From: Gemmatimonadota bacterium
Lineage (GTDB): Bacteria; Gemmatimonadota; Gemmatimonadetes; Longimicrobiales; Gaopeijiaceae
Direction: 5' to 3'
NCBI GenBank assembly: GCA_028873815.1
Contig: JAPPNN010000011.1
Location: 1-64,000, forward strand
Length of the DNA stretch: 64,000 nucleotides
This document shows, piece after piece, positions 22,366 to 62,215 of this stretch (its first letter is position 1; each line of letters starts with the position of its first letter). A model generated the notes under the pieces. That model made no database searches and was not told the origin of the DNA. It saw nothing but the letters and a program-made list of their open reading frames with translations. The translations under genes were made by a program, and so were the position numbers.

Positions 22366-22731
22366 ATGACCCCGAGCCTCGAATGGCGCTACCACCGCCC
22401 TGGCTGAACCAGTTGCAAGCGTACGCAGGAGTTTCTTGCGCAGAACGGAATCGACGCGGCTGAAACGAGAAGCGCGACGAAGAACCCGGTGACCGCCGAC
22501 CAGGCCCCGTCCCTGCTCGAAGGCATGACCGAACTCTGTGTGGCCAAGGGCAGGAAGGTGGTCCGCGTGGACCTCACCGGCGAGGATCGGCCGTCCGACA
22601 GCGAACTCGCGGCAATGATGACCAGCCGCTGGGGCAAGCTCAGGGCTCCCGCGATGCGGGTCGGCACCACGTTTGTGGTGGGGTACAACCGGGACATTCT
22701 CGCTTCGGTGTTCGGGACGGGAGGCGGCTGA
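22366..22731 (+). CDS. Predicted selenoprotein 1: ArsC/glutaredoxin-like, U-x-x-C
   Basis: Read through the TGA at 22405-22407, this is a 121-residue thioredoxin-fold protein with the opening EWRYHRPG-U-TSCKRTQEFL: Sec at residue 14 and Cys at 17, the place of the nucleophilic Cys in CxxC/ArsC-type proteins. The rest fits the same fold, ending LRAPAMRVGTTFVVGYNRDIL, the cis-Pro and the VG loop of ArsC/Grx-like domains. A good start (GGGAG and AGGA upstream of ATG 22366) precedes the TGA and has no use otherwise. A SECIS-like hairpin follows. Conventional calling would report only an 80-residue piece from a GTG at 22489. A nonsense mutation is the alternative. Substrate unknown. Confidence 0.85.
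22424..22440 (+). promoter_or_regulatory. Candidate bacterial SECIS of selenoprotein 1
   Basis: Hairpin CGCAGGA-GUU-UCUUGCG: seven pairs (one G-U), three-base loop starting with G, loop 23 bases after the UGA. This fits the published bacterial SECIS pattern (small stem, G in the first two loop bases, loop about 16-37 bases from the UGA). Confidence 0.8.
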
Positions 22732-22844
22732 GTCGACGGACACTGGCGATCCAACCGGATCGTCCACAGCTTCTTCGCTGGCAGTCCAGTCTTCCGACGC
22801 GAAGTCCCGGAAGTCTCAGAAGTCCCGGAACCGGAGAATCCACC

Positions 22845-25739
22845 ATGCGTCACGCGCGCCCCTGCACGACGGCCTTCACCCTCTCCCTCGCGTTCCTCGC
22901 GGCCGCCGCCCCGGCACTCGCGCAACAGAGGGCACTCGACCACGAGGACGCTCTTCACTGGAACACCATAGGCAGCCCCTCGCTGTCGCCGGACGGGAAC
23001 TGGCTGGTGTTCGTGCTGACCGCAATGGAGGGCGACCCCGTCCTGGTGGTCCGCGCCGCGAGCGAAGGGTCCGAGCCGCTGACCCTGAGGGGAACGAGCC
23101 CGCGGTTTACATCGGATTCCCGGTTTGTGGTGTACGAGGTGCCGCCGGTGGAAGCGGTGGTGGATTCGCTGCGGCGGGAGGGGAAGAGGGGTGACGCGCT
23201 GCCGAAGGACTCGCTGGGTGTCGTCGCCCTCGGCGGCGGCAGCGGCATGCAGGCGCGCACGGTGGGTGCCGTCGAGAGCCATAGGATGGCGGGCACCGGA
23301 AGCTGGGTGGCCTACGTGCCGGTCGAGGAGGAGGAAGAGGAGGAGAGTGCCGGAGAGGCCGAGGAGCTTGCGGAACCTGCTGAAGAGGAGGAGGAGGAGG
23401 GCGGCGAAGCGGACGACGGCGAAGAGAAGGACAAGGAAGAAGGGTCGGCTCTGGTGCTGTTGAGCCTGAATACCGGCGACGAGACGCGGTACGACATGGT
23501 CACGGACTACTTCTTCGGCGAGGACGCCGAGGTCTTCGCCTTCGCGACCTCCACCAGTGACGGCTCGGGCGACGGCGCGTACGTGGTCGACCTCGACGAC
23601 ATGACCCGCCACGCCGTGCTCGAGGGCGAGGGCAACTACAAGCAACTGGCGGTTGCCGACGACGGTTCCCAGGTCGCGTTCCTCTCCGACCGGGACGACT
23701 ACGCAGCCGATCAGCCCGAGTTCACGCTGTACCACGGAGCGGGCCCGTCCTGGTCGGGCGCCGCCATGGCCAATTCGGCCTCCGCCGGCGTGCCGTCCGG
23801 CTGGTGGGTCAGTGAAAACGGCGACGTCAGCTTTTCAGACGGCGGCGGCCGCATCCGCTTCGGCACGGCGCCGCGCCCCGAGCCCGAGGAAGAGGACGAC
23901 ACCCTGGACGAGGACAAGGTCACCCTCGACGTGTGGAACTGGCAGGATCCCTACCTGCAGCCGATGCAGCTCGTTCAGGCGAATCAGGAGCGCAACCGCA
24001 CGTACAGCGCGGTCGTGCACATGGACGACGGGTCGTCCGGCGGCCGGGTCGTCCAGCTGGGCACCCCCGAGGTGCCGACCGTGCGCTTCGCCGCGGAGGG
24101 CGACGCCACACATGCCATCGGAACGACGGACATGCCGTACCGCCAGCTCATCTCTTGGGACGGACGCTACAACGACATCTACGCGATCGACATCGGGACC
24201 GGCGAGCATCGCAGGATCGCCGAGAGGGTGAAGGGCTTCTTCGGCGCGTCGATGTCGCCGGCCGGTGGCTACATGTCGTGGTGGGACGGAGAGGCGCGGC
24301 ACTGGATGGTCGCCCCCGTCGATGGCGGCGAGGCGATGGCGGCCAGCAGCGACGTCCCGCACCCGGTCTGGAACGAACTCGACGATCACCCGGATCTGCC
24401 GCCGCCCTACGGGCCGGCCTTCTGGACCGAGGGGGACAACGCCCTCCTCTTCTACGACCGCTACGATGCCTGGCGCTTCGAGCCCGGCACCGGCGAGACC
24501 ACCAACCTGACCGGCGGCACGGGCCGTGCGTCGGGCACGCGGTTCCGGCACGCCCGCACGGACTTCGAGGAACCCGCCATCGCGGAAGGGGAGGCGCTCT
24601 GGCAGGCCTTCCACTACCTCGGCAAGCAGTCCGGCTTCCACCGCGGCCGCACCGACCGGACCGCCACGCCGGAGCCCGTCGTCATGGCGGACAAGACCTT
24701 CCGCTTCCGCGGGAAGGCCGAAGACGCGGACCGCTGGCTGATCACCCGCGAGGACTTCCGCGAGTTCCCCGACCTGTTGGTGACCGGCGGCGAAGGCGTC
24801 GACATCGACTTCTCCGGGATGGTCAGGATGTCCGACGCCAACCCCCAGCAGGCCGACTTCCGCTGGGGATCGGCCGAGATCGTCGAGTGGCACTCCAACG
24901 ACGGGACCCCGCTCCAGGGCATCCTCTTCACCCCCGACGACTTCGACCCGTCCACGCAGTACCCGATGATGGTCTACTTCTACGAGCGCATGTCCGACGG
25001 GATCCATCAGTACCGCTCGCCCCGGCCGGGTGGCTCGTCCGTCTCGGTGCCGTTCTACGTCAGCCGCGGCTACGTCGTCTTCATTCCCGACATCCCGTAC
25101 GAGATCGGCTATCCCGGCGAGAGCGCCCTCGACGCGGTGGTGCCGGGCGTACTGAGCCTCGTGGCCCGCGGTTTCGTCAAGGAAGACAAGATCGGGGTGC
25201 AGGGGCATTCGTGGGGCGGGTACCAGATCGCGTACATGGTCACCAAGACCAACCTGTTCGCGGCGGCCGAGGCGGGCGCACCCGTCAGCAACATGACCAG
25301 CGCCTACGGCGGCATCCGCTGGCAGTCCGGCATGAGCCGCATGTTCCAGTACGAGCGTACGCAGAGCCGGATCGGCGGCACGCTGTGGGAGTCCACGAAC
25401 GAGTACCTGCACAACTCGCCGGTCTTCTACGCCGACAAGATCCACACCCCGCTCCTGATGATGCACAACGACGAGGACGGCGCGGTTCCGTGGTACCAGG
25501 GGATCGAGATGTTCGTCGCCATGCGGCGGTTGCAGAAGCCGGTCTGGATGCTCAACTACAACGGCCAGGGGCACGGTCTGAGCCGCGAGGCCGACCGCAA
25601 GGACTGGGCGATCCGCATGCAGCAGTTCTTCGATCACTACCTTATGGACGCTCCCGCCCCGGTCTGGATGGAGGAAGGCGTGCCCGCGATCCTGAAGGGG
25701 AAGACCCTGGGGCTGGAAGTGAAGCGAAGGGTGTCGTAG
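22845..25739 (+). CDS. Secreted S9-family prolyl oligopeptidase-like peptidase
   Basis: A 964-residue exported serine peptidase. Signal peptide (residues 1-27, ALAQQ cut region), N-terminal propeller (to about 640) and C-terminal alpha/beta-hydrolase domain with the nucleophile in GHSWGGYQIAY (Ser 789), the acid in NDEDGAVPW (about 875) and the His in QGHGLSREADRKDW (about 909). An unusual Glu-rich insert (about residues 162-207, with runs of 6-7 Glu) interrupts the propeller. Family members cleave short peptides, often after Pro or Ala. It follows selenoprotein 1 by 113 bases. Confidence 0.9.
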   Translation: MRHARPCTTAFTLSLAFLAAAAPALAQQRALDHEDALHWNTIGSPSLSPDGNWLVFVLTAMEGDPVLVVRAASEGSEPLTLRGTSPRFTSDSRFVVYEVPPVEAVVDSLRREGKRGDALPKDSLGVVALGGGSGMQARTVGAVESHRMAGTGSWVAYVPVEEEEEEESAGEAEELAEPAEEEEEEGGEADDGEEKDKEEGSALVLLSLNTGDETRYDMVTDYFFGEDAEVFAFATSTSDGSGDGAYVVDLDDMTRHAVLEGEGNYKQLAVADDGSQVAFLSDRDDYAADQPEFTLYHGAGPSWSGAAMANSASAGVPSGWWVSENGDVSFSDGGGRIRFGTAPRPEPEEEDDTLDEDKVTLDVWNWQDPYLQPMQLVQANQERNRTYSAVVHMDDGSSGGRVVQLGTPEVPTVRFAAEGDATHAIGTTDMPYRQLISWDGRYNDIYAIDIGTGEHRRIAERVKGFFGASMSPAGGYMSWWDGEARHWMVAPVDGGEAMAASSDVPHPVWNELDDHPDLPPPYGPAFWTEGDNALLFYDRYDAWRFEPGTGETTNLTGGTGRASGTRFRHARTDFEEPAIAEGEALWQAFHYLGKQSGFHRGRTDRTATPEPVVMADKTFRFRGKAEDADRWLITREDFREFPDLLVTGGEGVDIDFSGMVRMSDANPQQADFRWGSAEIVEWHSNDGTPLQGILFTPDDFDPSTQYPMMVYFYERMSDGIHQYRSPRPGGSSVSVPFYVSRGYVVFIPDIPYEIGYPGESALDAVVPGVLSLVARGFVKEDKIGVQGHSWGGYQIAYMVTKTNLFAAAEAGAPVSNMTSAYGGIRWQSGMSRMFQYERTQSRIGGTLWESTNEYLHNSPVFYADKIHTPLLMMHNDEDGAVPWYQGIEMFVAMRRLQKPVWMLNYNGQGHGLSREADRKDWAIRMQQFFDHYLMDAPAPVWMEEGVPAILKGKTLGLEVKRRVS

Positions 25740-25749
25740 GGGACGCGCC

Positions 25750-26736
25750 ATGGCATCGGGAGTGGGGTGGGCCTGGCTGGCGGCGTCCGTCTTCGGGGTG
25801 GCTGCCGCCTGCACGCCGCCCGCCGCCGGGCCGCCGCCTGCGGGCGCCTTCGCGTTCGGCGTCTACGGGGACGGCCCCTACTATTTCTGGGAGAACGGAC
25901 GGTATCGGCGGCTGCTCGCGGATGTCGCGGCCTCCGACGTCGAGTGGTTCGTGCATATCGGGGACATCCTCTGGACTCCGTGCTCGGACGAGGCGTTCCG
26001 CGAGCGCCGGGCGTCTCTGGATGGACTGGAGCTCCCGGTGGTCTATACGCCCGGGGACAACGAGTGGACCGACTGTCACGAGAAGGCGCCCGGCGGCTAT
26101 GACACGCTGGAGCGCCTGGCCTCCCTCCGGCGCGTCTTCTTCGACGACCCGCACACCAGCCTGGGGGGCCGTCCGATGCTGCTCCTTTCGCAGGCGGCGA
26201 CGCCGGACTACGCCGATTTCCCCGAGAACGCGCGCTGGAGCCGGGGCGGCTTCGTCTTTGCCACGGTGCATATCGTCGGGTCCGCGAACGGTACGCTGAT
26301 CTTCGAGGGTCGCACCCCCGCGCACGACGCCGAAGTGCTGCGCCGTACCGAGGCCGCGGTGGCATGGCTGGATGGGACCTTCGCCGCGGCGCGCGCCGAC
26401 AGCGCGAAGGGCGTGGCGATCTTCGCCCACGGCAATGTTTCCCTGGAAAGGGGAGGTGCGTGGGGTGAGTGGGGATCCGAGCCCTACGAGCCGTTCGTGA
26501 CCGCACTGGAGAAGCAGGTCTCGGTCTTTCCTGGACCGGTCCTGTTCATCCACGGCGACTCGCACCAGCAGCGGGTCGACCAGCCGCTACATGACAGCGC
26601 GGGCGCGGTCCACGCCAACTTCACCCGCCTGGAGACCTTCGGCTCGCCGGACATCGGCTGGGTGCGCGTGGTGGTCGACACCGTCGGAGGGCGCTTTCTG
26701 GAGTTTGAGCCGCGGCTCATGCGGGGCTGGTTCTAG
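25750..26736 (+). CDS. Metallophosphoesterase-like lipoprotein
   Basis: A 328-residue exported protein, signal ending GVAAAC. Calcineurin-like signatures are partly visible: GVYGDGPYYF at the first metal-Asp position, HIGDILWTP (GD), PGDNEWTDCHE (GDNE, the metal-bridging Asn), FAHGNVSLE and VLFIHGDSHQQ near the C-terminus for the remaining metal His residues. The first motif (D-x-H replaced by GDGPYY) departs from the classic form, so activity needs caution. It starts 10 bases after the S9 peptidase stop, so the two are co-transcribed. Confidence 0.75.
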   Translation: MASGVGWAWLAASVFGVAAACTPPAAGPPPAGAFAFGVYGDGPYYFWENGRYRRLLADVAASDVEWFVHIGDILWTPCSDEAFRERRASLDGLELPVVYTPGDNEWTDCHEKAPGGYDTLERLASLRRVFFDDPHTSLGGRPMLLLSQAATPDYADFPENARWSRGGFVFATVHIVGSANGTLIFEGRTPAHDAEVLRRTEAAVAWLDGTFAAARADSAKGVAIFAHGNVSLERGGAWGEWGSEPYEPFVTALEKQVSVFPGPVLFIHGDSHQQRVDQPLHDSAGAVHANFTRLETFGSPDIGWVRVVVDTVGGRFLEFEPRLMRGWF

Positions 26737-26786
26737 CCTCGCGTCCCGTACTGGTCCCCCCCTCGCCCCCGGCTTACCTTCCAGCC

Positions 26787-27038
26787 ATGCCCATCTACGA
26801 GTACACCTGCGGGGACTGCGGCCTCGACTTCGAGCGCCTCGTGCTCGGCGGACGCACCCCGTCCTGTCCGGAGTGCGCCAGCGAGAACCTTGCGCGGCGC
26901 CTGTCGCTGCCTCGGGTCAAGTCCTCGACCACTCGCGAGATGGCGATGCGCGCCGCCAGAAAGCGCGACGCGGGTCAGGCCCGGGACCGGATGCACGAAC
27001 GCATCCGGTATGAAGAGAGCCACGACCGGCACGGTTGA
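26787..27038 (+). CDS. FmdB-family zinc-ribbon protein
   Basis: An 83-residue protein opening MPIYEYTCGDCGLDFERL, with a second knuckle CPECASEN: the zinc ribbon of the FmdB putative regulatory family. A basic, Arg-rich tail follows. Function in this family is unproven; it is often described as a regulatory protein. It stops just before the TTG start of the next gene. Confidence 0.85.
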   Translation: MPIYEYTCGDCGLDFERLVLGGRTPSCPECASENLARRLSLPRVKSSTTREMAMRAARKRDAGQARDRMHERIRYEESHDRHG

Positions 27039-27041
27039 GCC

Positions 27042-27536
27042 TTGAACCCGGTTCGACTGCTTGTGCTGTTCGCCCTGGCCGTTGCTGCGGCGGGTTGCGC
27101 ACGCGACCGGGGCGCCGGCGTTCTGGAGATCATCGCCGGTGAAGCCCGCTCGGCCATCGAGGCGTACGTCGACGCGGTGAACGCGATGGACCTCGATTCG
27201 GCCGGCACATTCTACTCGGACGCACCGGGATTCCAATGGGTCGAGGACGGCGCCGTGCGCTACGGCTCGACCCGGGAAGCGCGGGAATCGCTGGCAGCCC
27301 TGGGCGCGATGGCGTCGTCCACCAGGCTCACGCTCCGCGACCTGTCGGTGACGGCGCTCGGACTTGGCAGCGCGGTCGCCAGCTGTCACTTCGAGCAGGA
27401 CATCGGCATCGAGGGCGGGGGCGGGTTTTCGTACTCGGGGGCGATGACCATCGTGCTGCGCAACGACGACGGCCGCTGGCTCTTCGCCTCCGGTCACACA
27501 TCGACGGCGGTCACGGAACCCGGGGAACGCCCGTGA
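27042..27536 (+). CDS. SnoaL/NTF2-like lipoprotein
   Basis: A 164-residue protein with a lipoprotein signal ending VAAAGC, then an NTF2-like cone fold: AIEAYVDAVNAMDLDSAGTFYSDAPGFQWVEDG and the closing DGRWLFASGHTS. These domains bind small ligands or are enzymatically inactive; no catalytic residue is claimed. The start TTG at 27042 is used because the signal peptide begins right there. It overlaps the following permease by GTGA. Confidence 0.75.
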   Translation: MNPVRLLVLFALAVAAAGCARDRGAGVLEIIAGEARSAIEAYVDAVNAMDLDSAGTFYSDAPGFQWVEDGAVRYGSTREARESLAALGAMASSTRLTLRDLSVTALGLGSAVASCHFEQDIGIEGGGGFSYSGAMTIVLRNDDGRWLFASGHTSTAVTEPGERP

Positions 27537-29053: not shown

Positions 29054-29084
29054 TGATCGGCTGGACCGAGGGCCCCTCTCGGCC

Positions 29085-31165: not shown

Positions 31166-31259
31166 CTGCCGGCGGGGCTTACCTTCACTCTCTGCCTCGG
31201 GCCTGTTGCCGCCCCGGGTTTCTCACTGCCCCGGGCTTCCCCGGAGAAGGTTGACCCCG

Positions 31260-39363: not shown

Positions 39364-40287
39364 ATGCGCGGTCTGCGGGTGGTGCGCCACGCGGATCCGC
39401 GCGCCTTCCTCGACCGGGCCGAGCCCTGGCTGCTGCAGCGCGAAGCCGAGAACAACCTGCCCCTCGGAGTGGCTGCCTCCCTGGTGGGCGCCCGCCCGGC
39501 GTCGTCGCCGGGTCCCGCGGCGGCATCCGCGCACTCAGCGGCGTCGCCCTCGGGTGTCGAGCCGGCATCCCCACCTCCTCTCTACTTCGCGACGATCGAG
39601 TCGGGCAGCGACGTGGTCGGGTGCGCCTTCCGCACGCCGCCCTACAAGTTGGGCCTGACGCACATGCCCCTGGACGCAATCGAACTTCTGTCCCGGGATG
39701 TGGCCGATGTGTACGAGGAGATACCGGCGGTGCTGGCGCCGAACCCGGTCGCCCGCGCCTTCGGCGACGCCTGGAGCAAACTCAGGGGTGTAAGCGCCAG
39801 GCCCGGAGCCCGGCAGCGAATTCACATCCTGGAGCGTGTGGTGCTCCCTGCGCGAATGGCTCCGGGAGCAATGCGGCCTGCACGACCCGCGGACATCCCG
39901 CTCGTCGCCGGGTGGCTGGAATCGTTCGTGCGGGAGAGCGGTCTGAGTGATCCTGGAGATCCCCTCGAGCACGCCCATCGGTTGTGTGGCCGGGAGCGAG
40001 GGAACCGCTTGCTGGCGCTATGGATGAATGAGGAGCCCGTCTCGATGGCCGGGTTCCCGGCGCGCACACGCCACGGGGTCCGAATCGGCTATGTCTACAC
40101 ACCCGACGAGCATCGCCGCCGGGGCTACGCCACCACGCTGGTGGCCCAGCTCAGCGGCCATGCGCTCGACTTGGGATTCAGCCACTGCGTCCTCTACACC
40201 GACCTCGCGAATCCCACGTCCAACAAGATCTACCGCGAGGTCGGGTACCGCCCGCTCCAGGATGTCATGGATGTCGACTTTGAGTAG
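39364..40287 (+). CDS. GNAT-family N-acetyltransferase
   Basis: A 307-residue two-part protein. The C-terminal half (about 195-307) is a GNAT fold: RIGYVYTPDEHRRRGYATTLVAQLSGHALD contains the R/Q-x-x-G-x-G/A acetyl-CoA loop (RRRGYA) and LYTDLANPTSNKIYREVGYRP the typical NxxS/Y end. The N-terminal half (about 1-190) is a second, degenerate GNAT-like domain, as in tandem FeeM/DUF-type acetyltransferases. Acceptor unknown. The upstream in-frame GTG at 39277 would add 29 residues of low complexity. Confidence 0.8.
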   Translation: MRGLRVVRHADPRAFLDRAEPWLLQREAENNLPLGVAASLVGARPASSPGPAAASAHSAASPSGVEPASPPPLYFATIESGSDVVGCAFRTPPYKLGLTHMPLDAIELLSRDVADVYEEIPAVLAPNPVARAFGDAWSKLRGVSARPGARQRIHILERVVLPARMAPGAMRPARPADIPLVAGWLESFVRESGLSDPGDPLEHAHRLCGRERGNRLLALWMNEEPVSMAGFPARTRHGVRIGYVYTPDEHRRRGYATTLVAQLSGHALDLGFSHCVLYTDLANPTSNKIYREVGYRPLQDVMDVDFE

Positions 40288-40296
40288 TCTTCTCGG

Positions 40297-41346
40297 ATGA
40301 TCGATCTCCGCAGCGACACGGTGACCCGCCCTTCGCCGGCCATGCGCGAGGCGATGGCCCAGGCCGTCGTCGGCGACGACGTCTACGGCGACGACCCGAC
40401 CGTCAAGCGCCTGGAGGCCCGGACCGCGGAGTTGCTCGGCAAGGAGGACGCCGTCTACATGCCGACCGGTTCGATGACTAACCAGGTGGCGATCCGCGCC
40501 CACACCGAGCCGGGCGACCTCGTCCTTATGGACGCCGCGTCCCACGTCGTGCGCTCGGAGGGGGGAGGGCCGGCGGCGCTGTCGGGGGTCACCGCTCAGC
40601 GCATTGCCGGCGATCGGGGCATCTTCACGGCCGATCAGGTGCGCGACGCGCTGGGAACGTCCCACCCGGGGTCGCCCTCCACGCTCGCCCCTCCACCGAC
40701 CCTGCTCTGCGTGGAGAACACCCACAACGGCGGGGGAGGCAGCATCTGGCCCCTGGAGCAAATCGACGCCGTCGTCGGCGTCGCCCGCGCCGCCGGGCTC
40801 GGTTGCCACCTCGACGGCGCGCGCGTCTGGAACGCCTCCGCCGCGACCGGGATCCCGCCGGCCCGCTACGCGCGCGACTTCGACAGCGTGTCGGTGTGTT
40901 TTTCGAAGGCGCTGGGTGCGCCGGTGGGTTCGGCCCTGGCCGGTTCCGAGGACTTTGTGCGGCGGGCGAGGCGGTTCAAGCAGCTGTTCGGCGGCGGGTT
41001 CAGGCAGGCCGGCGTCATCGCGGCGGGGGCACGGTACGCTCTGGAGCACCACCGCGAGTGCCTGAAGGAGGATCATGCCAAGGCGGGCCTCCTTGCCGAT
41101 GCGCTGGCCGGGCTCCCGGGCGTGGATCTGGTCCGGGACCACGTGGAGACCAACATCCTCCGCTTCTCCGTGCGCCCCCCGGCGGGCGACTTCGTGGACG
41201 CGTGCATCGAGCACGGCGTCAGGATGCTGGTGTCGGGACGCCACGATGTGCGGGCGGTGATGCACCGGGACATCTCGATGAGCGACGCCGAGCGAGCGGC
41301 TCAGGTCATCCGCGAAGTGATGCCGACGCTCGTTCCGTCAGGATGA
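40297..41346 (+). CDS. ltaE: Low-specificity L-threonine aldolase
   Basis: A 349-residue PLP enzyme that cleaves L-threonine/allo-threonine to glycine and acetaldehyde. The N-terminus MIDLRSDTVTRPSPAMREAMAQAVVGDDVYGDDPTV is the family hallmark (abridged here to the first stretch: MIDLRSDTVTRPSPAMREAM). PTGSMTNQVA, ENTHNGGGG, LDGARVWNA and the Schiff-base Lys in SVCFSKALGAPVGS follow. It starts 9 bases after the GNAT gene, with a likely common transcript, and overlaps the DUF6483-like gene at its stop by 9 bases, convergent. Confidence 0.9.
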   Translation: MIDLRSDTVTRPSPAMREAMAQAVVGDDVYGDDPTVKRLEARTAELLGKEDAVYMPTGSMTNQVAIRAHTEPGDLVLMDAASHVVRSEGGGPAALSGVTAQRIAGDRGIFTADQVRDALGTSHPGSPSTLAPPPTLLCVENTHNGGGGSIWPLEQIDAVVGVARAAGLGCHLDGARVWNASAATGIPPARYARDFDSVSVCFSKALGAPVGSALAGSEDFVRRARRFKQLFGGGFRQAGVIAAGARYALEHHRECLKEDHAKAGLLADALAGLPGVDLVRDHVETNILRFSVRPPAGDFVDACIEHGVRMLVSGRHDVRAVMHRDISMSDAERAAQVIREVMPTLVPSG

Positions 41347-41790
41347 CCGTCCGTTTCCGGAGCGCGTGGTCCCGGCGATCAGCGCTTCGATCTCCTTGAT
41401 GCGCTCGCTGGCCTCCGGGAATCCGGTCAGAAAGGCGCCCCGGGGCGCGACCAGCGTGAAGAGCGCGGCGGCCTTGGCGAGGGAGGAATGCGCCAACTGC
41501 GCGTCTCCCGAGGACAGCAGGCTTATCCCGTCCGTCATCAGCACCTCGGCCAGCAGCCAGCAGCGCGCAGGATCGACCTCGCCCGTGGGCGCCATCATCG
41601 CCGGGAGCGCGTCGATGGACGCCGCGCGGGCGAGGTCCAGATCCATGCCTGCGCCGGCCGCCGCGCGACGCAGGGTGTCCTCCACGTCGGCCGCCCGGGC
41701 CGAGCCGCCCAGGATCGCCCTGCGCAACGCGATCAGCACCGCGCCCAGCTCCTCGATCACCCGCAGGATGTAGTCGCGCTGCACCATCAT
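41338..41790 (-). CDS. DUF6483-like small helical protein
   Basis: A 150-residue protein rich in Ala, Leu and Arg, predicted helical, opening MMVQRDYILRVIEELGAVL. This opening is typical of the DUF6483 family (unknown role). It starts with an ATGA overlap with the DUF1854 gene, so it is the third member of the ABC unit. No signal peptide. The first ATG of the tandem pair at 41790 is used; the second at 41787 is equally possible. Confidence 0.65.
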   Translation of the reverse strand: MMVQRDYILRVIEELGAVLIALRRAILGGSARAADVEDTLRRAAAGAGMDLDLARAASIDALPAMMAPTGEVDPARCWLLAEVLMTDGISLLSSGDAQLAHSSLAKAAALFTLVAPRGAFLTGFPEASERIKEIEALIAGTTRSGNGRSS

Positions 41791-42263
41791 CCGGCGTACG
41801 CCCAGAGCCAATCGCGGCTCCCCGAATCCAGTGCCTCCGGATCGGGGACGTGATACAGGTCGCCGGCCAGGTCGCGAATCAGCAGGCCGCCGCCGGCAAT
41901 CTGCACGGGCCAGTCGTCCAGCCGCGTCTGGAACCGCCGTGACCCCTGGCGTGTTCGGACTGCCCAGTGCCGAATCTCAACCTCCTCGGAGACGTCTACA
42001 ACTGCGGTAATCTCCAGCAGGAATCCGGCCGCGACAAGCGCACGCTCGAGCGCGGCGCGCGACTTCTCGCCCAGCTCCGACACGTCGCGAACGTAGGCGA
42101 ACTCCTCTTCGTCATGGTCCCGCAGGGAGATGTGCCGGGCCGGATCGGACCACGGAAAGCACCGGTGAACCACGACCGGTGCGCTGCGTCCCCCGGCCTC
42201 GGCCCACAGCTGTCCGTCGGGCCGCCAGCGCAGCACGGCCCGGCCTTGGTCTGAAGTCCCCAT
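41787..42263 (-). CDS. DUF1854 protein, partner of the ABC exporter
   Basis: A 158-residue protein with the DUF1854 pattern: HRCFPWSDPARHISLRDHDEEEFAYVRDVSELGEKSRAALERALVAAGFLLEI and WAVRTRQGSRRFQTRL...LLIRDLAGDLYHVPDP. Close relatives in Burkholderiales are named cyanophycin-metabolism-associated because of their gene neighbourhood; no cyanophycin synthetase lies here. I prefer the ATG at 42263 over GTG 42284 because GAGAGGGAAA is right before it. The GTG gives a start just 1 base from the ABC stop. Confidence 0.8.
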   Translation of the reverse strand: MGTSDQGRAVLRWRPDGQLWAEAGGRSAPVVVHRCFPWSDPARHISLRDHDEEEFAYVRDVSELGEKSRAALERALVAAGFLLEITAVVDVSEEVEIRHWAVRTRQGSRRFQTRLDDWPVQIAGGGLLIRDLAGDLYHVPDPEALDSGSRDWLWAYAG

Positions 42264-44857: not shown

Positions 44858-45295
44858 ATGACGCCGAAGTGTTGGGCCGTGTTCGTGGCGCGGGTGATCC
44901 TGGGGCTCATCTTCTTCGCCGCCGGATTCTGGAAGGTGTTCCGGCTGGGAGCGGTCGAGCACGCCCGCGGCCTGTTCGTGGAACCCTACGCTGCCAGCCC
45001 GTTGCCCGAATGGTCGCTCTGGTTCACCGGCGTCGTGGTCCCGTACGTGGAGCTCATCGGCGGCGCGCTCATGCTGGCCGGCTGGAAGCGCTTTGCGGCC
45101 GCCGTCGGGTTGGGGTGCGTCCTGATCCTGGTCACCTTCGGGCACCTCCTGGCCGAGCCGCTGTACGCGTTCCACACCCACGTGATCCCGCGCGTCCTGC
45201 TGCTGATCGTAGTGCTGGCGCTCTTCGAAGAGGACCGGTTGAGTCTGGATTCGTGGCTGGCCGGGAGACGCCAGGCTGCCTCGCCTACCCCATGA
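44858..45295 (+). CDS. DoxX/MauE-type small membrane protein
   Basis: A 145-residue four-helix membrane protein: ARVILGLIFFAAGFWKVFRLG, WFTGVVVPYVELIGGALMLAG, AAVGLGCVLILVTFGHLL and RVLLLIVVLALFEE. It resembles DoxX/MauE-type quinone- or redox-linked proteins. The ATG at 44858 is used; a GAGAGGACATGCG stretch precedes it. It overlaps the MerB-like selenoprotein gene by ATGA, so the two are certainly co-transcribed and coupled. A link to mercury or redox supply is inference. Confidence 0.75.
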   Translation: MTPKCWAVFVARVILGLIFFAAGFWKVFRLGAVEHARGLFVEPYAASPLPEWSLWFTGVVVPYVELIGGALMLAGWKRFAAAVGLGCVLILVTFGHLLAEPLYAFHTHVIPRVLLLIVVLALFEEDRLSLDSWLAGRRQAASPTP

Positions 45296-45966
45296 CGCCG
45301 CCCGCCGAAGCCTTCGCGTGGCGCCTGCGCGGCCACCTCTACCGCCGGATCCGGGACACCGGGACGGTGCCTTCCCGCGGCGAGCTTGCCGCTGACCTCG
45401 GTGCGGCCGGCGCCGAGATCGACCGGGCCCTTCGCTTCCTCGCCGACGCCTGCGTGCTGGCGCTGGACGACGACGGCGAAGTCTGGATGGCCCATCCCTT
45501 CTCGGCGGTGCCCACGCCGTACCGGGTGGAGACGTTGATCGGTGCGTACTGGGCGAACTGCGCCTGGGATGCGCTGGCGATTCCGGTGCTTTTCGGCACC
45601 GATGGCCGCACGCGCACCAGCTGCCCGCATTCGGGCACGCGTTTTGACCTGACCATGACGCGTGGCCGGGCCGGGCCAAGTGGGGCTGTCGTCCGCCTGG
45701 CCGTGCCCCTGCGCGACTTCTGGGACGACATCGGCTTCACCTGAAGCAACATCGTAGCCTTCCGGTCGGAGGGGGATGCCAGAGCGTGGGAGCGGGGGCG
45801 GGGCGGGGATCCCGGCGCCATCGTGCCGGTCGAGGTGCTGGGCGAGTTAAGCCGGGAGTGGTACGCGGGGCGGCTGGACGACGCATGGCGGCCGTATTCG
45901 GGCCAGACAAAGCAGGCGCTGCTAAGGGATGCGGGGTTGAGCGGGGAGTTCTGGGAGCTGGGGTGA
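45292..45966 (+). CDS. Predicted selenoprotein 2: MerB-like alkylmercury lyase with Sec
   Basis: Read through the TGA at 45742-45744 this is a 224-residue protein of the alkylmercury lyase family (MerB cleaves C-Hg bonds by protonolysis). HPFSAVPTPYRVE is the family opening; ANCAWDALAIP has Cys90 and Asp93, matching catalytic Cys96 and Asp99 of MerB; FWDDIGFT-U-SNIVAFRSE has Sec151 exactly where MerB has Cys159. Past the TGA the family C-terminus continues for 73 residues (EWYAGRLDDAWRPYSGQTKQ and the final GLSGEFWELG). Without read-through the protein loses a third of its length and one catalytic residue. A nonsense mutation is the alternative. Confidence 0.87.
45758..45773 (+). promoter_or_regulatory. 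Candidate bacterial SECIS of selenoprotein 2
   Basis: Hairpin CCUUCC-GGUC-GGAGGG: six pairs (one G-U) and a GGUC loop, the same four bases as in the E. coli fdhF SECIS loop. The loop starts 19 bases after the UGA. Confidence 0.82.
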
Positions 45967-53979: not shown

Positions 53980-54140
53980 ACTCTGTATCCCATCCTCGGG
54001 CCGTGGACACACATGTTGAGCCGGCGACGTCCGTGTGGAACCGGCAGCCGCACCATCTAGAATACGCGTTCCGCCACGTCTCGCCAACTCGGCCGACCGG
54101 GGACCCATGGGCGGACCAGGCGCGCCAAGGTTGCAGAAAT

Positions 54141-54158
54141 ATTTAGGCTTGCCTAAAT
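54141..54158. promoter_or_regulatory. DtxR/IdeR-type iron box
   Basis: ATTTAGGC-TT-GCCTAAAT, a perfect 18-base palindrome of the DtxR/IdeR/MntR operator kind, 60 bases upstream of the DtxR-FeoA gene. It suggests iron- (or manganese-) dependent repression of this gene and feoB, and autoregulation. Confidence 0.8.
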
Positions 54159-54218
54159 TCGAGGCGATTCCTTACCACAACACTACGTCCAGCCGACCGC
54201 CCGGTCCCCAGAGTCCCC

Positions 54219-55250: not shown

Positions 55251-57523
55251 CCGCCCAGGCGGCAGCCGCGACGCGCCATGGACCGGGGCCGCGACGCGAG
55301 CAGAACCTGATCCGTCTCGGTCTCAGCCCCCACAAGTGGGATCACCTGATCGCGCTGGCCGGCAATCCCAACGTCGGCAAGACGACCGTCTTCAACGCGC
55401 TGACCGGGCTCCGCCAGCATACCGGCAACTGGCCCGGCAAGACGGTGACCCGGGCCGAGGGCGCGTTCCTGTACGACGGAAGCCGGGTCAAGGTCGTCGA
55501 CCTGCCTGGTACCTATTCCCTCCAGGCCGGCAGCGTCGACGAGGAGGTCGCACGCGACTTCATTCTGTTCGGGCAACCGGATGTGACGGTCGCGGTGGTG
55601 GACGCCATGCGGCTGGAGCGCAACCTGAACCTGGTGCTGCAGATCCTGGAGATCACCGATCGCGTGGTCGTCTGCCTGAACCTGATCGACGAGGCCCGGC
55701 GGCACGGCGTGTCAGTGGATCCGGCGCGGCTGGAGAAGGAGCTCGGCGTGCCGGTGGTGCCGACCGTGGCGCGTCAGGGGGAGGGGATTGACGCATTGCT
55801 GCGCACGGCTTCCGAAGTGGCCACCGGCGCGCGCAAGACGGCTCCGCGCCGCCTGCGCTCGCATCCGGCCGGCGTGGAGGAAGCGGTCGACGCGCTCAAG
55901 CCCCTGATCGTGGACGCGTTCCCGGAGCTGCCCAACGCCAAGTGGGTGGCGCTGCGGCTGCTGAACGCCGACGAACGGGTGACCGAGGCCGTGCGCTCCG
56001 GCGAGATCGGCGATCTCAACCTGGATACGCCCCCGGAAGTGGCCGGTGGCGGCGAGGGGGCGACTGAGAACCGTCCGGCTCGCGCGTCACCACCCGAGGC
56101 GACCGCGGCCCGGGCGCGCATCCTCGATGCCGCCACCCGTCAGCGCTGGACCCTGCGGCCCGGCTTTCAGGACGCCGTTGCGGAGAACCTCTACCGGGAA
56201 GCCGCAAGGATCGGCGAGGCGAGCGTGCATCGGGGACTGAAAAAGGTGGGCGCGGGCCTGGACCGTCGCCTGGATCGCTGGCTTACGAGCCGCGTCCTCG
56301 GCTTCCCGCTCATGCTGGGCATCCTGGCGGTCGTCTTCTGGCTGACGATTGCCGGTGCGAACGTGCCTTCGGCGATGCTCGCCACGCTTCTGATCGACAC
56401 CCTGCACCCCATGCTGCTGAACTTCGGCGAATGGGCCCGAATGCCCTGGTGGCTGAGCGGATTTCTGTTCGACGGGGTGTACCGGGCGACCGCCTGGGTG
56501 GTGAGCGTCATGCTGCCGCCCATGGCCATCTTCTTCCCGCTCTTCACGCTGCTCGAGGACTTCGGGTACCTGCCGCGCGTCGCATTCAACCTGGACTCGC
56601 TCTTCAAGCGTGCTGGCGCCCACGGCAAACAGGCGCTGACCATGAGCATGGGCTTCGGCTGCAACGCGGCCGGGGTGGTCGCGACGCGCGTGATCGACAG
56701 TCCCAGGGAACGCCTGATCGCGGTCATCACCAACAACTTCTCCCTGTGCAACGGGCGCTGGCCGACTCAGATCCTGATCGCGACGATCTTCATCGGGGCC
56801 CTCGTGCCGCCGCACCTGGCGGGTGTGGTCGCCGCCGGCGCCGTCGTGACGATCGCCCTGCTCGGGATCTTCTTCATGTTCATCACTTCGTGGGGGCTGT
56901 CCAACACCGTGCTGAAGGGCGAGGCCACGACCTTTTCGCTCGAACTGCCGCCGTACCGCCCGCCACGGGTCCTGCAGACGCTGTACACGTCGATCATCGA
57001 CCGCACCCTGATCATCCTCTGGCGCGCGGTCCTCTTCGCGGTGCCCGCCGGCGCGGTGATCTGGCTGATTTCGAACATCGGCTTCGGCGGTGCCTCATTG
57101 GCCGAGCACGCGATCGACTGGATGAACCCCTTCGGCGTGCTGCTCGGGCTCAACGGGGTCATCCTGCTCACCTACATCATCGCGATCCCGGCCAACGAGA
57201 TCGTGATTCCGACCATCCTGATGCTCACCGTCCTGACCCTGGGGACGCCCGAACTCGGCGAGGGGGCCGGCGTGATGTTCGAGCGGGATTCGGTTGGGCA
57301 GATGGAGGGATTGCTGGTCGCGGGAGGGTGGGAGTTGCTGACCGGGGTCAACCTCATGCTGTTCAGCCTGCTGCATAACCCCTGCTCCACGACGATCTAC
57401 ACCATATACAAGGAAACGAAGAGCGGTCGCTGGACGGCTGTGTCCGCGCTGCTGCCGCTGGCGATGGGATTCGTGGTCTGCTTCCTGGTGGCGCAGTTCT
57501 GGCGGCTCGCCGGGGGCGTCTAG
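55247..57523 (+). CDS. feoB: Ferrous iron transporter FeoB
   Basis: A 758-residue inner-membrane Fe(II) transporter. N-terminal G protein: [16 protein letters not shown] (G1), DLPGTYSLQ (G3) and CLNLIDEA (G4, NxxD). The membrane part has the Gate motifs: [17 protein letters not shown] and the FNCNAAGVV-like [35 protein letters not shown] belongs to the second. A long linker (about residues 270-345) lies between G domain and membrane. Starts by GTGA overlap with the regulator. A proline-rich FeoC is absent; FeoA lies in the regulator. Confidence 0.93.
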
Positions 57524-58902
57524 CGGGGTGCCCCCGCGGCCTCCAGCATCTCCGGCACCCGGCAGAACTTGACCCGCGGACGCCCCTGAGCCTCTCCGGC
57601 CGCCGTTTCGCAGGCGTCCATGCGCGCCCACCCCTCCTTGTCGACCCAGCGAACGCCCCTCCGCTCCAGCAGCCGCGGAAGATCGTCCGCGCGTGAGCTT
57701 CTCCTCCCGGCGGTGACCCCCGCGCCCCGGTCCTCGGCCATAAGGGCGACCGTGCCTGCCGCGTCGGCCTTGTTCGTCCCGATCACCCCCGACGGCCCCC
57801 GCTTCGCCCAGCCGACGACGTATTCACCCGGGACGACCTCCGGGCCATCCGCCAGCGCCAGCACGCGGCCGCCGTCGTTCGGCACGATCCCCGCGCGCTC
57901 GTCGAAGGGCACGCCCGGCACCGGAGCGCCCCGGTATCCCACGGAGCGGATCAGCAGCCCGCACGGGAGCGTCTCCACCAAGCCGGTGCCCTCGGCGCGC
58001 TGGTAGCCGTCCTCCTGCGCGACCAGGCGGTTCCGCTCCACGCGCACGCCGCACACCTTGCCGTCCTTACCCACCACCTCGACCGGCGACACCAGAAAGC
58101 GGAAACGCACGACCCGGTCCCCGTCCCCAGGCTCGGCCTCGGCGTAGCCTCGTAGCGTGTTCATGTTGCGCTTGCGCACGGCGTTGTCCTCGATTTCGGC
58201 CGCGCTCGCGTCGTCCAACTCCAGTTCGGCGGCGTCCACCGTGGCCGAGACCCCGTCCAGGCGACCGAATTCCCGCAGCTCCGGGTTGGTGAACGACGCC
58301 TGCGCGGGACCCCGGCGACCCAGCAGCGTGACCCTCCTCACGCGGCTTTTGCGCAGCGCCGCCAGCGCGTGGTCGGCGATGTCGGTGGTCGCCAGGCGGT
58401 CGGGCGAGAGCACCAGGATGCGCGCCACGTCGATCGCGACGTTGCCGTTCCCGATGACCACCACGTCCTCGCAGTCGAGATCGAATGTCTCGTTCCGGAA
58501 GTGCGGATGGGCGTTGTACCAGCCCACGAACCGCATCGCGGCGTGGCTTCCGGCCAGATCCTCTCCCGGGATGCCCAGGCGGCGGTCGCTCTGCGCCCCG
58601 ACCGCGTAGACGATCTGGTCGTAGCGGGAGCGCAGATCCTCCAGCGTCACGTCTTCGCCAAGCGTGACGTTGCCGAAGTAGCGGACCTCGTCCCGGGCCA
58701 GAAGCTTCGCGTAGACGCGCGCGACCGACTTGATGGCCTGGTGGTCCGGGGCCACGCCGTCGCGCACGAGCCCGTAGGGCGCGGGCAGGTTGTTGATCAT
58801 GTCGATCGCGACGGGGTCGTCACGCTTCAGCAGCGCTTCGGCCGCGAAGAATCCGGCCGGTCCTGCTCCAATGATCGCGATGCGCGTCGGCGATGTCGTC
58901 AC
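57520..58902 (-). CDS. Ferredoxin/adrenodoxin-type NADP+ reductase (FprA-like)
   Basis: A 460-residue flavoprotein electron-transfer enzyme: FAD-binding [40 protein letters not shown]-binding [36 protein letters not shown] and the closing [18 protein letters not shown]. It moves electrons from NADPH to ferredoxin. Start GTG 58902 is chosen as the first codon before the Rossmann strand; an extra N-terminus to 59043 would overlap the cytochrome c gene. Convergent with feoB, sharing a CTAG at the ends. Confidence 0.85.
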
Positions 58903-59018
58903 GGTCTCGGGGGTCCCTGGGCTCGATGCGGCACATCTGCGGTTGACCGCCACCACGCCCGCAAGCGAGCTTCCGGTCGCACCACATGGAATGCACACTG
59001 ATCCGAGGAACGAAGATA

Positions 59019-59510
59019 ATGACTGGGAACAAGGGGCATGCACCGCTCCCTCAGGCCATCCTCGCGGCGACGCTCTTCACGGCGGCCGCCTGCGGTGGAG
59101 GCGATTCCGGCTCCGCAGGGTCGGGGGAAGCGTCGGACACGGACGCGAATCCGGCGTCGGCAGCCGCCACGGAGCCCGTTGACCTGCTGGCCGGACTCGA
59201 TCCGGCGCTCCTTCCGGAAGGCGTGACGGTCGCCATGGTCGAGCAGGGACGTGACCTCTTCAACGGCGGAGGAATCTGCTATACCTGTCACACCGTCGAG
59301 GCCACAGGCGGGCCGCTCGCGCCCGACCTTACCGACGACACGTGGATCAACGTGGACGGCGAGTACCAGTCGATCATCGAGCTGGTCAAGACCGGCGTCT
59401 CACAACCCATCGAGCATCCGGGCGCGATGCTGCCACGTGCCGGAATGCCGCTGACCGACGAGCAGGTGGAGGCGGTCTCCGCGTACGCATACATTCTGAG
59501 CCGATTGTAG
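59019..59510 (+). CDS. Lipoprotein c-type cytochrome
   Basis: A 163-residue cytochrome c. Lipoprotein signal ending TAAAC, a Gly/Ser/Asp-rich linker (about residues 25-60), haem motif CYTCH (about 98-102) and the distal Met in GAMLPRAGMPLTD. GAGGAACG precedes ATG 59019. It would carry electrons at the periplasmic face. Divergent from the ferredoxin reductase gene. Confidence 0.87.
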   Translation: MTGNKGHAPLPQAILAATLFTAAACGGGDSGSAGSGEASDTDANPASAAATEPVDLLAGLDPALLPEGVTVAMVEQGRDLFNGGGICYTCHTVEATGGPLAPDLTDDTWINVDGEYQSIIELVKTGVSQPIEHPGAMLPRAGMPLTDEQVEAVSAYAYILSRL

Positions 59511-59538
59511 GACTTCCGGGCGAACACACGCGGACACG

Positions 59539-60648
59539 CTAGGAGTCGAAGAGGTCTCCCTGGGTCCCTCCGTGCCTCCGGAAGGCCTTCGTCGAAAGCC
59601 GGGGCCCCTTCCCGTCCAGCCCCAGCTTGCGAGCGGTCGCGCGGAACAGTCGTTCAATCTGCTTCGCGTATTGTCCCTTGCCTCGAAAGCGGGTGTGAAA
59701 CCCGGAGTCGTTCAGCCTGCCGCCGCGCACCTCCCTGATCCTGTGGAGGACCTTGGCCCTCCGGTCGGGGAAATGAGCCTCCAGCCAGTTCTTGAAGTGG
59801 TCGGCCACCCCCAACGGCAGCCTCAGGAGCAGAAAGGACGCGTATGCGGCACCGGCTTCGGCGGCCGCCTCCAGGATAGCGGGTATCTCCTCGTCGTTCA
59901 GTCCGGGAATCACGGGGGCTACGAACACGCCGACCGGTATCCCGGCGGATGAGAGACTCCAGATCGCGTCGAGCCGCCTTGCCGGGACGGAGGTGCGGGG
60001 CTCCATCACGCGTTGCAGTTCGTTCTTCAGGGTGGTTACGGACACCGTCACGTTCGCGCAGTTGTGCGCTGACAGGTCTCCCAGCACATCGGCGTCCCTG
60101 GTCACAAGGTGGTTCTTGGTCACGATGGCCACCGGGTTGCGGAAGTCCCTCAGCACTTCCAGGCAGCCCCGGGTAAGGCCCAGGCGCCGCTCCACCGGCT
60201 GGTACGGATCGGTGACGCCCGACATGCCGATCAGCCTCGGCCGCCAGGAGCTCGCCGAAAGCGCCTCGCGCAGCAACTCGGGCGCCCGGTGCTTCACCAG
60301 GATCTTCCTCTCGAAGTCCAGGCCGGAAGAAAACCCGAGGTATTCGTGCGTAGGACGCGCGTAGCAGTAGACGCAGCCGTGCTCGCAGCCCCGATAGGGA
60401 TTGACCGACGCGTCGAAGGGAATGTCCGGACTGCGGTTTGTCGCTATGATCTCCCTCGTGGCATCGTTGAGGAACTCTGTGCGGGGAGGTTCACCTGCCA
60501 GGTCCGCGGGGTCGATCTCCGTGTGAACCGTTTCGAAACGGTTGGGAGGATCGTAAGGTACGGCACGTCCCTTGAGCCGATGGCGGATCGAAAGGCCCGC
60601 CCGAGGACGGCCCGGATCCCTCCGGAGTTTGACAGTTGGCATCCGCAT
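59539..60648 (-). CDS. PA0069-type radical SAM protein
   Basis: A 369-residue radical SAM enzyme. CEHGCVYCYARPTHEYLG carries the CxxxCxxC cluster motif; SGVTDPYQPVERRLGLTRGCLEVL and the VPVGVFVAPVIPGLND region are typical of the PA0069/SplB-related family. The reaction is unknown. Start is ATG 60648 (MRMPTVK, 60642 also possible); upstream residues of the longer frame overlap the SufE gene. Divergent from sufE. Confidence 0.8.
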   Translation of the reverse strand: MRMPTVKLRRDPGRPRAGLSIRHRLKGRAVPYDPPNRFETVHTEIDPADLAGEPPRTEFLNDATREIIATNRSPDIPFDASVNPYRGCEHGCVYCYARPTHEYLGFSSGLDFERKILVKHRAPELLREALSASSWRPRLIGMSGVTDPYQPVERRLGLTRGCLEVLRDFRNPVAIVTKNHLVTRDADVLGDLSAHNCANVTVSVTTLKNELQRVMEPRTSVPARRLDAIWSLSSAGIPVGVFVAPVIPGLNDEEIPAILEAAAEAGAAYASFLLLRLPLGVADHFKNWLEAHFPDRRAKVLHRIREVRGGRLNDSGFHTRFRGKGQYAKQIERLFRATARKLGLDGKGPRLSTKAFRRHGGTQGDLFDS

Positions 60649-60696
60649 GTCCCAATTTCGGACTTTATTCGGCTTTTTGCAAGGAGATCGCTCCGA

Positions 60697-61107
60697 ATGA
60701 CGCTGGAAGAGCTCGAAAAGAGGCTGAACAGCCTGGCCGACCGAACGCTGAGATACCACTACATCATTCAGCTGGGTCGGCGGCTGCCTCCCATGCCGAG
60801 CGAGCTGAAGACGGAGGCGAATCAGGTGCGCGGATGCATGAGTCCGGCCTGGCTCGCCGGTGGCCTGGAGGACGGTGACCCTCCGGTCCTCCGCTTCGTC
60901 GGGGATTCGGAGTCCGTCATCGTGAAGGGACTCTTCGCGATCCTGGCGGAGGTGTACAACGGCCACCCGCCGGAAGAGGCCCTGGCGGTGGACCTCTCCG
61001 ACGTCTTCGAACGGCTCAAACTGGGGGAAGCCCTGAGCCCGAACCGGCGCAACGGGTTCTATTCGATGGTCGAGAAGATCCGCAGGGTAGCCGCCTCGCT
61101 CGCCTGA
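60697..61107 (+). CDS. SufE-family sulfur acceptor
   Basis: A 136-residue SufE/CsdE-family protein accepting persulfide from a SufS-type desulfurase. The NQVRGCMSPAWLAGG segment has the reactive Cys (about residue 47); GLFAILAEVYNGHPPEEA and LSPNRRNGFYSMVEKIR complete the fold. AAGGAG precedes the ATG. No SufS gene is in this window. The radical SAM gene is divergent, 48 bases away. Confidence 0.9.
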   Translation: MTLEELEKRLNSLADRTLRYHYIIQLGRRLPPMPSELKTEANQVRGCMSPAWLAGGLEDGDPPVLRFVGDSESVIVKGLFAILAEVYNGHPPEEALAVDLSDVFERLKLGEALSPNRRNGFYSMVEKIRRVAASLA

Positions 61108-61116
61108 GATGGTCCG

Positions 61117-61557
61117 TCAGACGGCCTCGATCTCGTAGCCGATGCGCCAGTTGGTCATGTTCTCGGGGTCGTCGGAACCCTCGTCGCCGGGCTGAATCAA
61201 GGCGACATGCTCCCCGATGGGGCCCGTGAAGGTCCTCCGGTATGTGTCCAGCTGGTCGTTGGCGCTGAACTGGTCGAGTTCCTCACCCCGCAGTTCGACG
61301 ACCAGGTGATCGGTCACCTCGCCCTCGAACAGCACCTTGTCGAGGTTCTTCAGGCGGTTCCACCGCGGGCGGTCCGAGATCGAGTAGTGCCCCTGTCCGG
61401 GCATCCGGGTCTCCTGCACCTGACCGCCGTGGTTGTCCGTGATTACCTTCGCCCAAAAGACGAACTCGCCCTTCTCCTTGAAGAACGGCTCCAGGTTGTC
61501 GAGGATCTGCAGCCACCGCAGTGTAACCCTGATCCGCGTTCCGCCCTGTCCAGTCAT
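61117..61557 (-). CDS. Conserved-looking protein of unknown function
   Basis: A 146-residue protein without signal peptide. It opens RIRVTLRWLQILDNLEPFFKEKGEF and has the paired segments FWAKVITDNHGGQVQETRMP and HYSISDRPRWNRLKNLDKVLFEG, then HLVVELRGEELD, an apparent beta-sandwich, C2-like. No family was recognised. It lies 73 bases downstream (in reading order) of the AhpD-like selenoprotein gene on the same strand and probably shares its transcript. Confidence 0.55.
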   Translation of the reverse strand: MTGQGGTRIRVTLRWLQILDNLEPFFKEKGEFVFWAKVITDNHGGQVQETRMPGQGHYSISDRPRWNRLKNLDKVLFEGEVTDHLVVELRGEELDQFSANDQLDTYRRTFTGPIGEHVALIQPGDEGSDDPENMTNWRIGYEIEAV

Positions 61558-61630
61558 TTCCGCCTAGCTCCTTGGTTGTGGGCCCGAGGCACCCGGGCAA
61601 CGGTCGGCGTCAAGGTACGACAAAACGGGG

Positions 61631-62215
61631 TCACACGTCCAGACCCCATTCGCTGATGAAAGTCTCCGGCTCCACCCCCAGGCCATCTGCGATCCGCGTG
61701 ATGTAGTTGAAAAAGCCGACGACCTGCACGGCGTCGTGGATCGCCCGGTCGCTCAATCCCACACGCCGCAGTCGGTCCAGGTCTGCCTCGGTCATGCCCG
61801 TCTGTTTGCGCGTCAGCCTGGTCGCGTAGTCGCACAGTGCCCGGTCTGTCTGGGCAAGCGGCGCCTCGGGCCAGTCGGCCACGATCCGGTGCACCAGCGC
61901 ATCGCCCTCCTCATCGCCCATGCCCATTTCCTGGACCTCTGCCCGGAGGTCATGCGCGTGCGCCTGGGTTCAGTAGAAGCAATCCAGTTCGGCAGAGACC
62001 ACCGTGGCGAGGAGTTCGCGCTGGAATCGGGACAGGGGAGACGGGCCGAACATGATGGCTCCATACTGTGCCATGGTGGTCCGCAGGACCGGCGCATTCA
62101 GGCTCATCACCTGCACGATGTTCCAGACGCGGCCGGAGCGCGCCACCGCCGCCTCGAACTCCCGTCGGAGGAGCCCGGTGGCCTCCGCCGGCGGGATTTC
62201 CTCGATCCAGGCCAT
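61631..62215 (-). CDS. Predicted selenoprotein 3: AhpD-like peroxidase with C-x-x-U
   Basis: Read through the TGA at 61970-61972, this is a 194-residue AhpD/carboxymuconolactone-decarboxylase-type peroxidase (peroxidase-related enzyme family, about 190 residues). MAWIEEIPPAEATG is the family opening; the active site is ELDC-F-Y-U-T-Q-A-H: Cys79, Sec82 and His86, the C-x-x-C-x-x-x-H pattern of AhpD in which the second Cys is the attacking thiol. After the TGA the helical domain continues (ADWPEAPLAQTDRALCDYATRLTRKQTG and VQVVGFFNYITRIADGLG). Conventional calling gives two separate ORFs. A hairpin follows. Mutation is the alternative. Confidence 0.86.
61934..61951 (-). promoter_or_regulatory. 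Candidate bacterial SECIS of selenoprotein 3
   Basis: Hairpin GACCUC-CGGGCA-GAGGUC: six perfect pairs, six-base loop with G as second base, loop 24 bases after the UGA. Confidence 0.8.

Follow-up and report, generated by a model that had tools for sequence, protein, structure and literature searches.

The organomercurial lyase MerB is reported to require Cys96, Asp99 and Cys159 (PMC8261052; PMC4525700). A large survey screened MerB sequences for Cys96, Asp99, Cys117 and Cys159; it lists MerB in seven genomes of Chloroflexi, in one of Gemmatimonadetes and in none of Acidobacteria (PMC8261052). In a deep-ocean study, the residues required of merB were Tyr93 and Cys159 (PMC11308531). Selenocysteine (Sec, U) is described in SaoL (NF040728), a MerB-like organometallic lyase selenoprotein of the Sec-assisted organometallic system with the motif CU (PMC13188914). 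Also, a 2020 table of prokaryotic selenoprotein families contains the entry ‘Organic mercuric lyase MerB2’ (PMC7435645), which may be the clade described here or another one. Our search of the literature for Sec-containing MerB returned SaoL, an ‘alkylmercury lyase MerB-like protein’ with the same example accession, and the bare entry ‘MerB2’. Concerning other families, both the ArsC-like UxxC (NF041106) and the AhpD-like CxxU (TIGR01926) selenoproteins are already listed in the 2026 review PMC13188914.

We analysed a window (the whole stretch of 64,000 nucleotides from contig JAPPNN010000011.1 of a Gemmatimonadota bacterium) which contains a candidate selenoprotein gene of the ArsC/Spx-like, the MerB and the AhpD-like kind. 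The ArsC-like and AhpD-like selenoproteins belong to known families; the MerB homologue is the interesting one. The coordinates of all features are presented in Table 1.

TGA codons of the window and the decoding machinery of the genome

An earlier note on this DNA had placed TGA codons in three redox genes, each at a conserved cysteine site, and all three codons were found in frame at those positions. The frames run on past the TGA to a further stop, and the read-through products, with Cys at the TGA, passed the cut-offs of their families: 108.2 bits against a cut-off of 85 for NF041106 (ArsC_rel_Se_1), 92.0 against 27 for Pfam PF03243 (MerB), and 119.6 against 81.8 for TIGR01926 (AhpD-like, with CxxU present). 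The TGA codons are aligned with the first Cys of the Spx CxxC, with Cys159 of solved MerB (numbered by the chain coordinates of the aligned structure) and with the second Cys of the AhpD CxxC, in agreement with the cysteine sites that had been proposed. Canonical MerB (PF03243; PDB 3f2f, 3f0o, 1s6l) and MerB2 (5c17) have Cys159; in the window MerB this Cys is thus replaced by a TGA codon. Two of the three genes, the ArsC-like and the AhpD-like, are in listed selenoprotein families.

The ArsC-like protein shares the UxxC of NF041106 and is an ordinary member of that family with no notable difference; it would serve as a UxxC thiol/selenol oxidoreductase. The AhpD-like protein has CxxU in common with TIGR01926. 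It also shares the CFYUT motif of NF041238 (AhpD_rel_CFYUT), against which it scores 70.5 bits, below the cut-off of 175, with a match to model positions 151–338 of 357 only; it would serve as a CxxU selenoperoxidase. The chemistry that had been attributed to these selenoproteins, on organomercurials and peroxides, is a prediction from family membership.

Table 1. Features of the window, with likely Sec codons and SECIS-like hairpins listed under the gene they belong to
Feature	Position	Strand	Details
Predicted ArsC/Spx-like selenoprotein gene	22366..22731	+	121 aa read through, motif HRPGU-TSC; ends in TGA
Likely Sec codon TGA, ArsC-like gene	22405..22407	+	residue 14, first position of UxxC
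SECIS-like hairpin, ArsC-like gene	22424..22440	+	7-bp stem, loop GTT from 23 nt after TGA
DoxX-family membrane protein	44858..45295	+	PF07681 27.1 bits against cut-off 23.6; stop overlaps MerB start (ATGA)
Predicted MerB-family selenoprotein gene	45292..45966	+	224 aa read through (FTUSNIVAFRSE), start ATG 45292; ends in TGA
Likely Sec codon TGA, MerB	45742..45744	+	residue 151, aligned with MerB Cys159
SECIS-like hairpin, MerB	45758..45773	+	6-bp stem, loop GGTC from 19 nt after TGA
Predicted AhpD-like (peroxidase-related) selenoprotein gene	61631..62215	-	194 aa read through, CFYUT (CFYUTQAH); ends in TGA
Likely Sec codon TGA, AhpD-like gene	61970..61972	-	residue 82, second Cys of CxxC
SECIS-like hairpin, AhpD-like gene	61934..61951	-	6-bp stem, loop CGGGCA from 24 nt after TGA
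Pfam-scanned TGA-ending frames	26787-27533, 123-1748, 40297-41844, 40021-41811, 59542-61557		rejected

The genome assembly which holds the window (4.29 Mb, 87 contigs, 86% complete) encodes selA (494 bits), selB (306 bits), tRNA-Sec (79.7 bits, anticodon loop CUUCAAA) and selD (381 bits; L015, G000 C5:31565-32488). These are the four genes that the earlier note had proposed to look for, and the objection that they might be absent fails. A TGA occurs once in frame within selD, which is therefore probably a selenoprotein itself. SelB would bind the hairpin and deliver Sec-tRNA. With the machinery present, and with the TGA codons and hairpins conserved in relatives as described below, the suggestion that this organism uses selenocysteine is supported, and the three in-frame UGAs, each with a conserved hairpin, are very probably decoded as selenocysteine. 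A second AhpD-like gene is found in the same genome (L183, G000 C67:2979-3509); it has an in-frame TGA in CFYU and scores 141.7 bits with TIGR01926.

Two database relatives of MerB (P0096 and P0107) have Trp at the MerB UGA and one (P0113) has Gly, seemingly the result of translation with a reassigned code. They are the evidence in favour of a global reassignment of UGA to Trp or Gly. Such a reassignment is extremely improbable: 26 of the 50 ORFs of the window end in a TGA which is not a Sec site (a 27th ends at the AhpD Sec codon), the three sites align with Cys, and TGA is also the final stop of each of the three read-through genes.

The window was also examined for a fourth selenoprotein. 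Ten TGA-ending frames, besides that of the AhpD-like gene, have an extension whose coding score is positive; five of them were scanned with Pfam and were rejected because they gave adjacent ordinary genes, a domain confined to one side, or no family match. In 26787–27533, for instance, the TGA lies between a SnoaL-like gene and a zinc-ribbon gene of the FmdB type that share one frame; this resembles read-through but amounts to two adjoining ordinary domains. The ORF scan behind this count missed the MerB gene, therefore its sensitivity is low and a further site is possible.

Relatives of the three genes and their co-occurrence with selA

We searched 395 genomes of the same phylum for the MerB gene (E <= 1e-8). 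Matches are found in 65 genomes: 51 have an in-frame TGA, 12 have the site covered without a stop, and in two the site is not covered. In all 51 genomes the TGA lies at the Cys159 column. The MerB alignment comprises 100 loci. The genome search contributed 51 loci of the U form and 13 of the Cys form; the others come from a second set, in which some of the same genomes recur. The Cys159 column of this alignment contains U in 83 loci, C in 14 and a gap in one, and is unreadable in two fragments. On the Gemmatimonadota side, the named U-form records are titled Gemmatimonadetes, Gemmatimonadota or Longimicrobiales. Those of other phyla are titled Acidobacteria, Terriglobia or Thermoanaerobaculia, and Chloroflexi, Anaerolineae, Thermomicrobiales or Ktedonobacteria. 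Two U-form records (L054 and L058) are titled Gammaproteobacteria; these titles are suspect because the proteins are identical to those of genomes of the same family (L025 and L030).

The 14 Cys-form loci include the canonical-type paralogues L176 and L178 and the Microbacterium protein L076. In ten MerB-like loci of the CAWC type (L164–L166, L168–L170 and L172–L175) Cys replaces Asp99 and Cys is also present at 159; these possibly represent another enzyme that arose inside the Sec clade. Based on a single FastTree topology of 79 distinct sequences (67 U and 12 C, fragments dropped), there are two parsimony state changes, and the CAWC/Cys clade is nested among the U forms.

The ArsC-like gene has matches in 82 of the 395 genomes, with a TGA inside in each of the 83 rows, and the TGA is found at one alignment column in all 30 aligned loci. 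The AhpD-like gene is matched in 137 genomes. Its alignment contains 35 loci (30 from among the matches listed, four picked for having no stop, and the paralogue of the window's own genome), and the site is U in 31 of them and Cys in four, all from selA-less genomes. Relatives in all three families keep the TGA and the sequence downstream of it, which disposes of the concern raised earlier that relatives might have a simple truncation at this place.

The presence of selA was called at E <= 1e-60, and the following counts treat related genomes as independent. selA is found in 282 of the 395 genomes. It is present in 48 of the 51 MerB-TGA genomes versus 5 of the 12 Cys-form genomes (Fisher p = 1.3e-4), and in 79 of the 82 ArsC-TGA genomes, compared with the overall figure. 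Five TGA carriers are selA-negative (G339, G352, G390, G212 and G377; 73–89% complete) and account for three MerB-TGA and three ArsC-TGA genomes; all five have tRNA-Sec (69–78 bits), and SelB is over the cut-off in only two. Looking at the 11 selA-less Cys-form genomes (seven for MerB and four for AhpD), tRNA-Sec at E <= 1e-8 is absent in eight. The genomes G263, G039 and G055 have matches near 50 bits, where the family cut-off is 47; these would be other tRNAs, and they count against a perfectly clean split. SelB is a less clean marker than selA, as 6 of 16 genomes, of both the Cys and the TGA type, have sub-cut-off matches of 162–191 bits.

The genomes reached through named MerB loci contain selA in 21 of 23 cases. 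For the named U-form genomes the figure is 20 of 21 (L082 omitted, since its site is not covered), and the exception is a Terriglobia MAG (L070). By title, six of these 21 are Gemmatimonadota-type or mislabelled kin, and the others are mostly Acidobacteria and Chloroflexi. The genome of the Cys-form Microbacterium (L076) is without selA.

Hairpins downstream of the TGA codons

Hairpins were accepted if the loop had 3–8 nt, started about 15–37 nt after the TGA and had a G in the first two loop bases. The loop distances and the position of the G given in the earlier note were reproduced for all three genes (Table 1). Its argument that three independent coincidences are unlikely is too strong as put, because such hairpins are common in the window: the GC content is 68%, and a hairpin of -7 kcal/mol or better follows 157 of the 1292 TGA trinucleotides on both strands (12%). 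When the window copy was shuffled among synonymous codons, an equally good fold was obtained in 1416 of 5000 cases for MerB (28%), 1052 of 5000 for AhpD (21%) and 17 of 5000 for ArsC; the MerB and AhpD hairpins of the window copies alone are not significant. Hairpin energy was dropped as sole evidence, since the z-scores range from -0.75 to 1.33 and such hairpins are common among TGA triplets.

Across the relatives, a hairpin of -4 kcal/mol or better is present in each distinct gene of the three families (67/67 MerB, 24/24 ArsC-like and 29/29 AhpD-like). Family-wide synonymous shuffles, which ignore relatedness and leave out the Cys AhpD homologues L179–L182, reached the observed mean hairpin energy in 0 of 500 cases in each family. 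The ArsC-like hairpin has an identical position in 24/24 distinct relatives, and in L112 two of its pairs are changed on both sides. Of the 29 distinct relatives of the AhpD-like gene, 28 share the geometry of its hairpin; only the own-genome paralogue L183 departs from it. In MerB, the hairpin lies 19 nt after the TGA with a 4-nt loop in 57 of the 67 distinct genes, and the loop is GGTC in 64 of them.

The clearest hairpin signal for MerB is codon usage. The codons of the hairpin are frozen (TTC for Phe+6 in 66/66, CGG for Arg+7 in 65/67 and TCG for Ser+8 in 64/64), whereas at other conserved multi-codon positions the commonest codon reaches just 36–79%. The same codons are found in the 15 MerB loci titled outside Gemmatimonadota (TTC in 15, CGG in 13 and TCG in 15). 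A few Cys-form MerB genes (L164, L173 and L176) also have strong hairpins at the same stretch. Chance is untenable as an explanation of the three hairpins, because they are conserved in relatives and the MerB hairpin codons are frozen.

The database relatives of MerB bear on the possibility that the TGAs are real stops and the genes truncated or decaying. Among the best 120 of 1385 relatives, 117 span only 56–67% of the query, i.e. the part before the TGA, which favours real stops, as do the unremarkable hairpins of single copies; this coverage is also as expected for database entries ending at the TGA. Seven of the relatives were inspected: four end exactly at the TGA, and three long ones have Trp or Gly there. 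A protein search for close Cys orthologues with the C-terminal stretch alone gave one match, covering 28% of the stretch, among 677 candidates; such orthologues may nevertheless exist. Against real stops, the TGA is found at the same column in 83 MerB loci across three titled phyla with the downstream protein conserved, synonymous sites are frozen, and the Cys forms are concentrated in selA-less genomes. Truncation or decay is therefore very improbable, and the frozen SECIS codons provide a clean handle for re-annotating truncated database entries.

Competition at UGA is general in bacterial Sec decoding, and the MerB gene could accordingly have a dual output: a stop at low selenium, giving a MerB of about 150 aa with a role of its own, and read-through when selenium is available. 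This is quite improbable. Nothing specific speaks in its favour, and the short MerB would lack both the ligand at position 159 and a third of the fold.

Predicted function of the MerB homologue

Selenocysteine in the MerB homologue would likely occupy the mercury-binding Cys159 position. Cys96 and Asp99 are kept, together with the 159 position, in all 83 U-form loci, and Cys117 is kept in 72 of them. The predicted fold of the read-through MerB has a pLDDT of 95.5 and all its best matches are MerB, the closest solved folds being Hg-bound MerB2 and MerB; the comparison covered the chains ranked by Foldseek, and other families may match as well. For the MerB selenoprotein, organomercurial cleavage is a prediction to which we give about an even chance. 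In this reaction, the selenolate of Sec159 and Cys96 would bind the metal of the organomercurial and Asp99 would protonate the leaving carbon. Hg(II) would then pass to cellular thiols or selenols, because MerA at the curated level is usually absent: it is over the curated cut-off in 5 of the 52 MerB carriers, and the best match in the window's genome reaches 375 bits, below the cut-off of 454.45.

Mercury is bound more tightly by selenium than by sulfur. With a selenolate at position 159, mercury binding should be both quicker and tighter; this may aid cleavage and could slow the release of Hg(II). Organomercurial lyase mimics of the selone type reportedly react more rapidly than the corresponding sulfur compounds (PMC11639659). 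A lyase in which Sec is a metal ligand would offer a natural test of why selenium serves mercury chemistry. A wider reading, which we hold tentatively and at a little below even confidence, is that Se-dependent organomercury lyases are widespread in Gemmatimonadota, Acidobacteriota and Chloroflexota, with Sec159 cleaving methylmercury without MerA, and that they are invisible to merB surveys because gene callers stop the protein at the UGA. If Sec enzymes do demethylate mercury, merB screens based on Cys159 would overlook a wide range of demethylating organisms in the environment.

The MerB selenoprotein could also be real without being an organomercury lyase, acting on another organometal or having a redox or metal-binding role, perhaps SaoL-like; this possibility, too, falls just short of an even chance. 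It is favoured by the low number of carriers with curated-level MerA and by the scores of the window copy with the NCBI MerB models, which are far below both cut-offs (48.6 bits against 193 for NF009710 and 38.6 against 200 for NF033555) and, like the MerA count, set it apart from canonical MerB. The weak matches to SaoL given below and the DoxX gene that overlaps upstream point in the same direction. On the other side stand the retained residues and the solved folds described above; also, in one large survey over half of the genomes with merB have no merA anyway (PMC8261052).

Concerning SaoL, both it and the window protein are MerB-like, and the window protein would, like SaoL, contain selenocysteine. 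The cut-off of NF040728, however, is 140 bits, and the four U-form proteins scanned score 29–41, with the window copy at 29.0. The motifs differ as well: SaoL has CU, whereas the MerB of the window type has Thr before U and A, R, S, N, K, T or G after it in 83/83 loci, and no Cys beside Sec was found in these 83 U-form loci. Judged by profile score and motif, the Sec159-MerB clade would be set apart from SaoL, and it may already have been described.

As regards gene context, 36 MerB loci have flanking sequence, and a DoxX-like ORF is found at 10 of them, including the locus of the window. A conserved DoxX partnership was rejected on this count, and DoxX is therefore not a defining context of MerB. 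The arrangement of the three Sec genes was also compared within the genus (n = 11). In G017 the ArsC-like gene lies 2.8 Mb from MerB, and for the remaining same-genus genomes the arrangement is obscured by the end of a contig or the lack of a match. All three Sec genes share one contig in four genomes, that of the window and G347, G058 and G061, and their spacing is similar, the ArsC-like gene lying 22–23 kb and the AhpD-like gene 14–22 kb from MerB.
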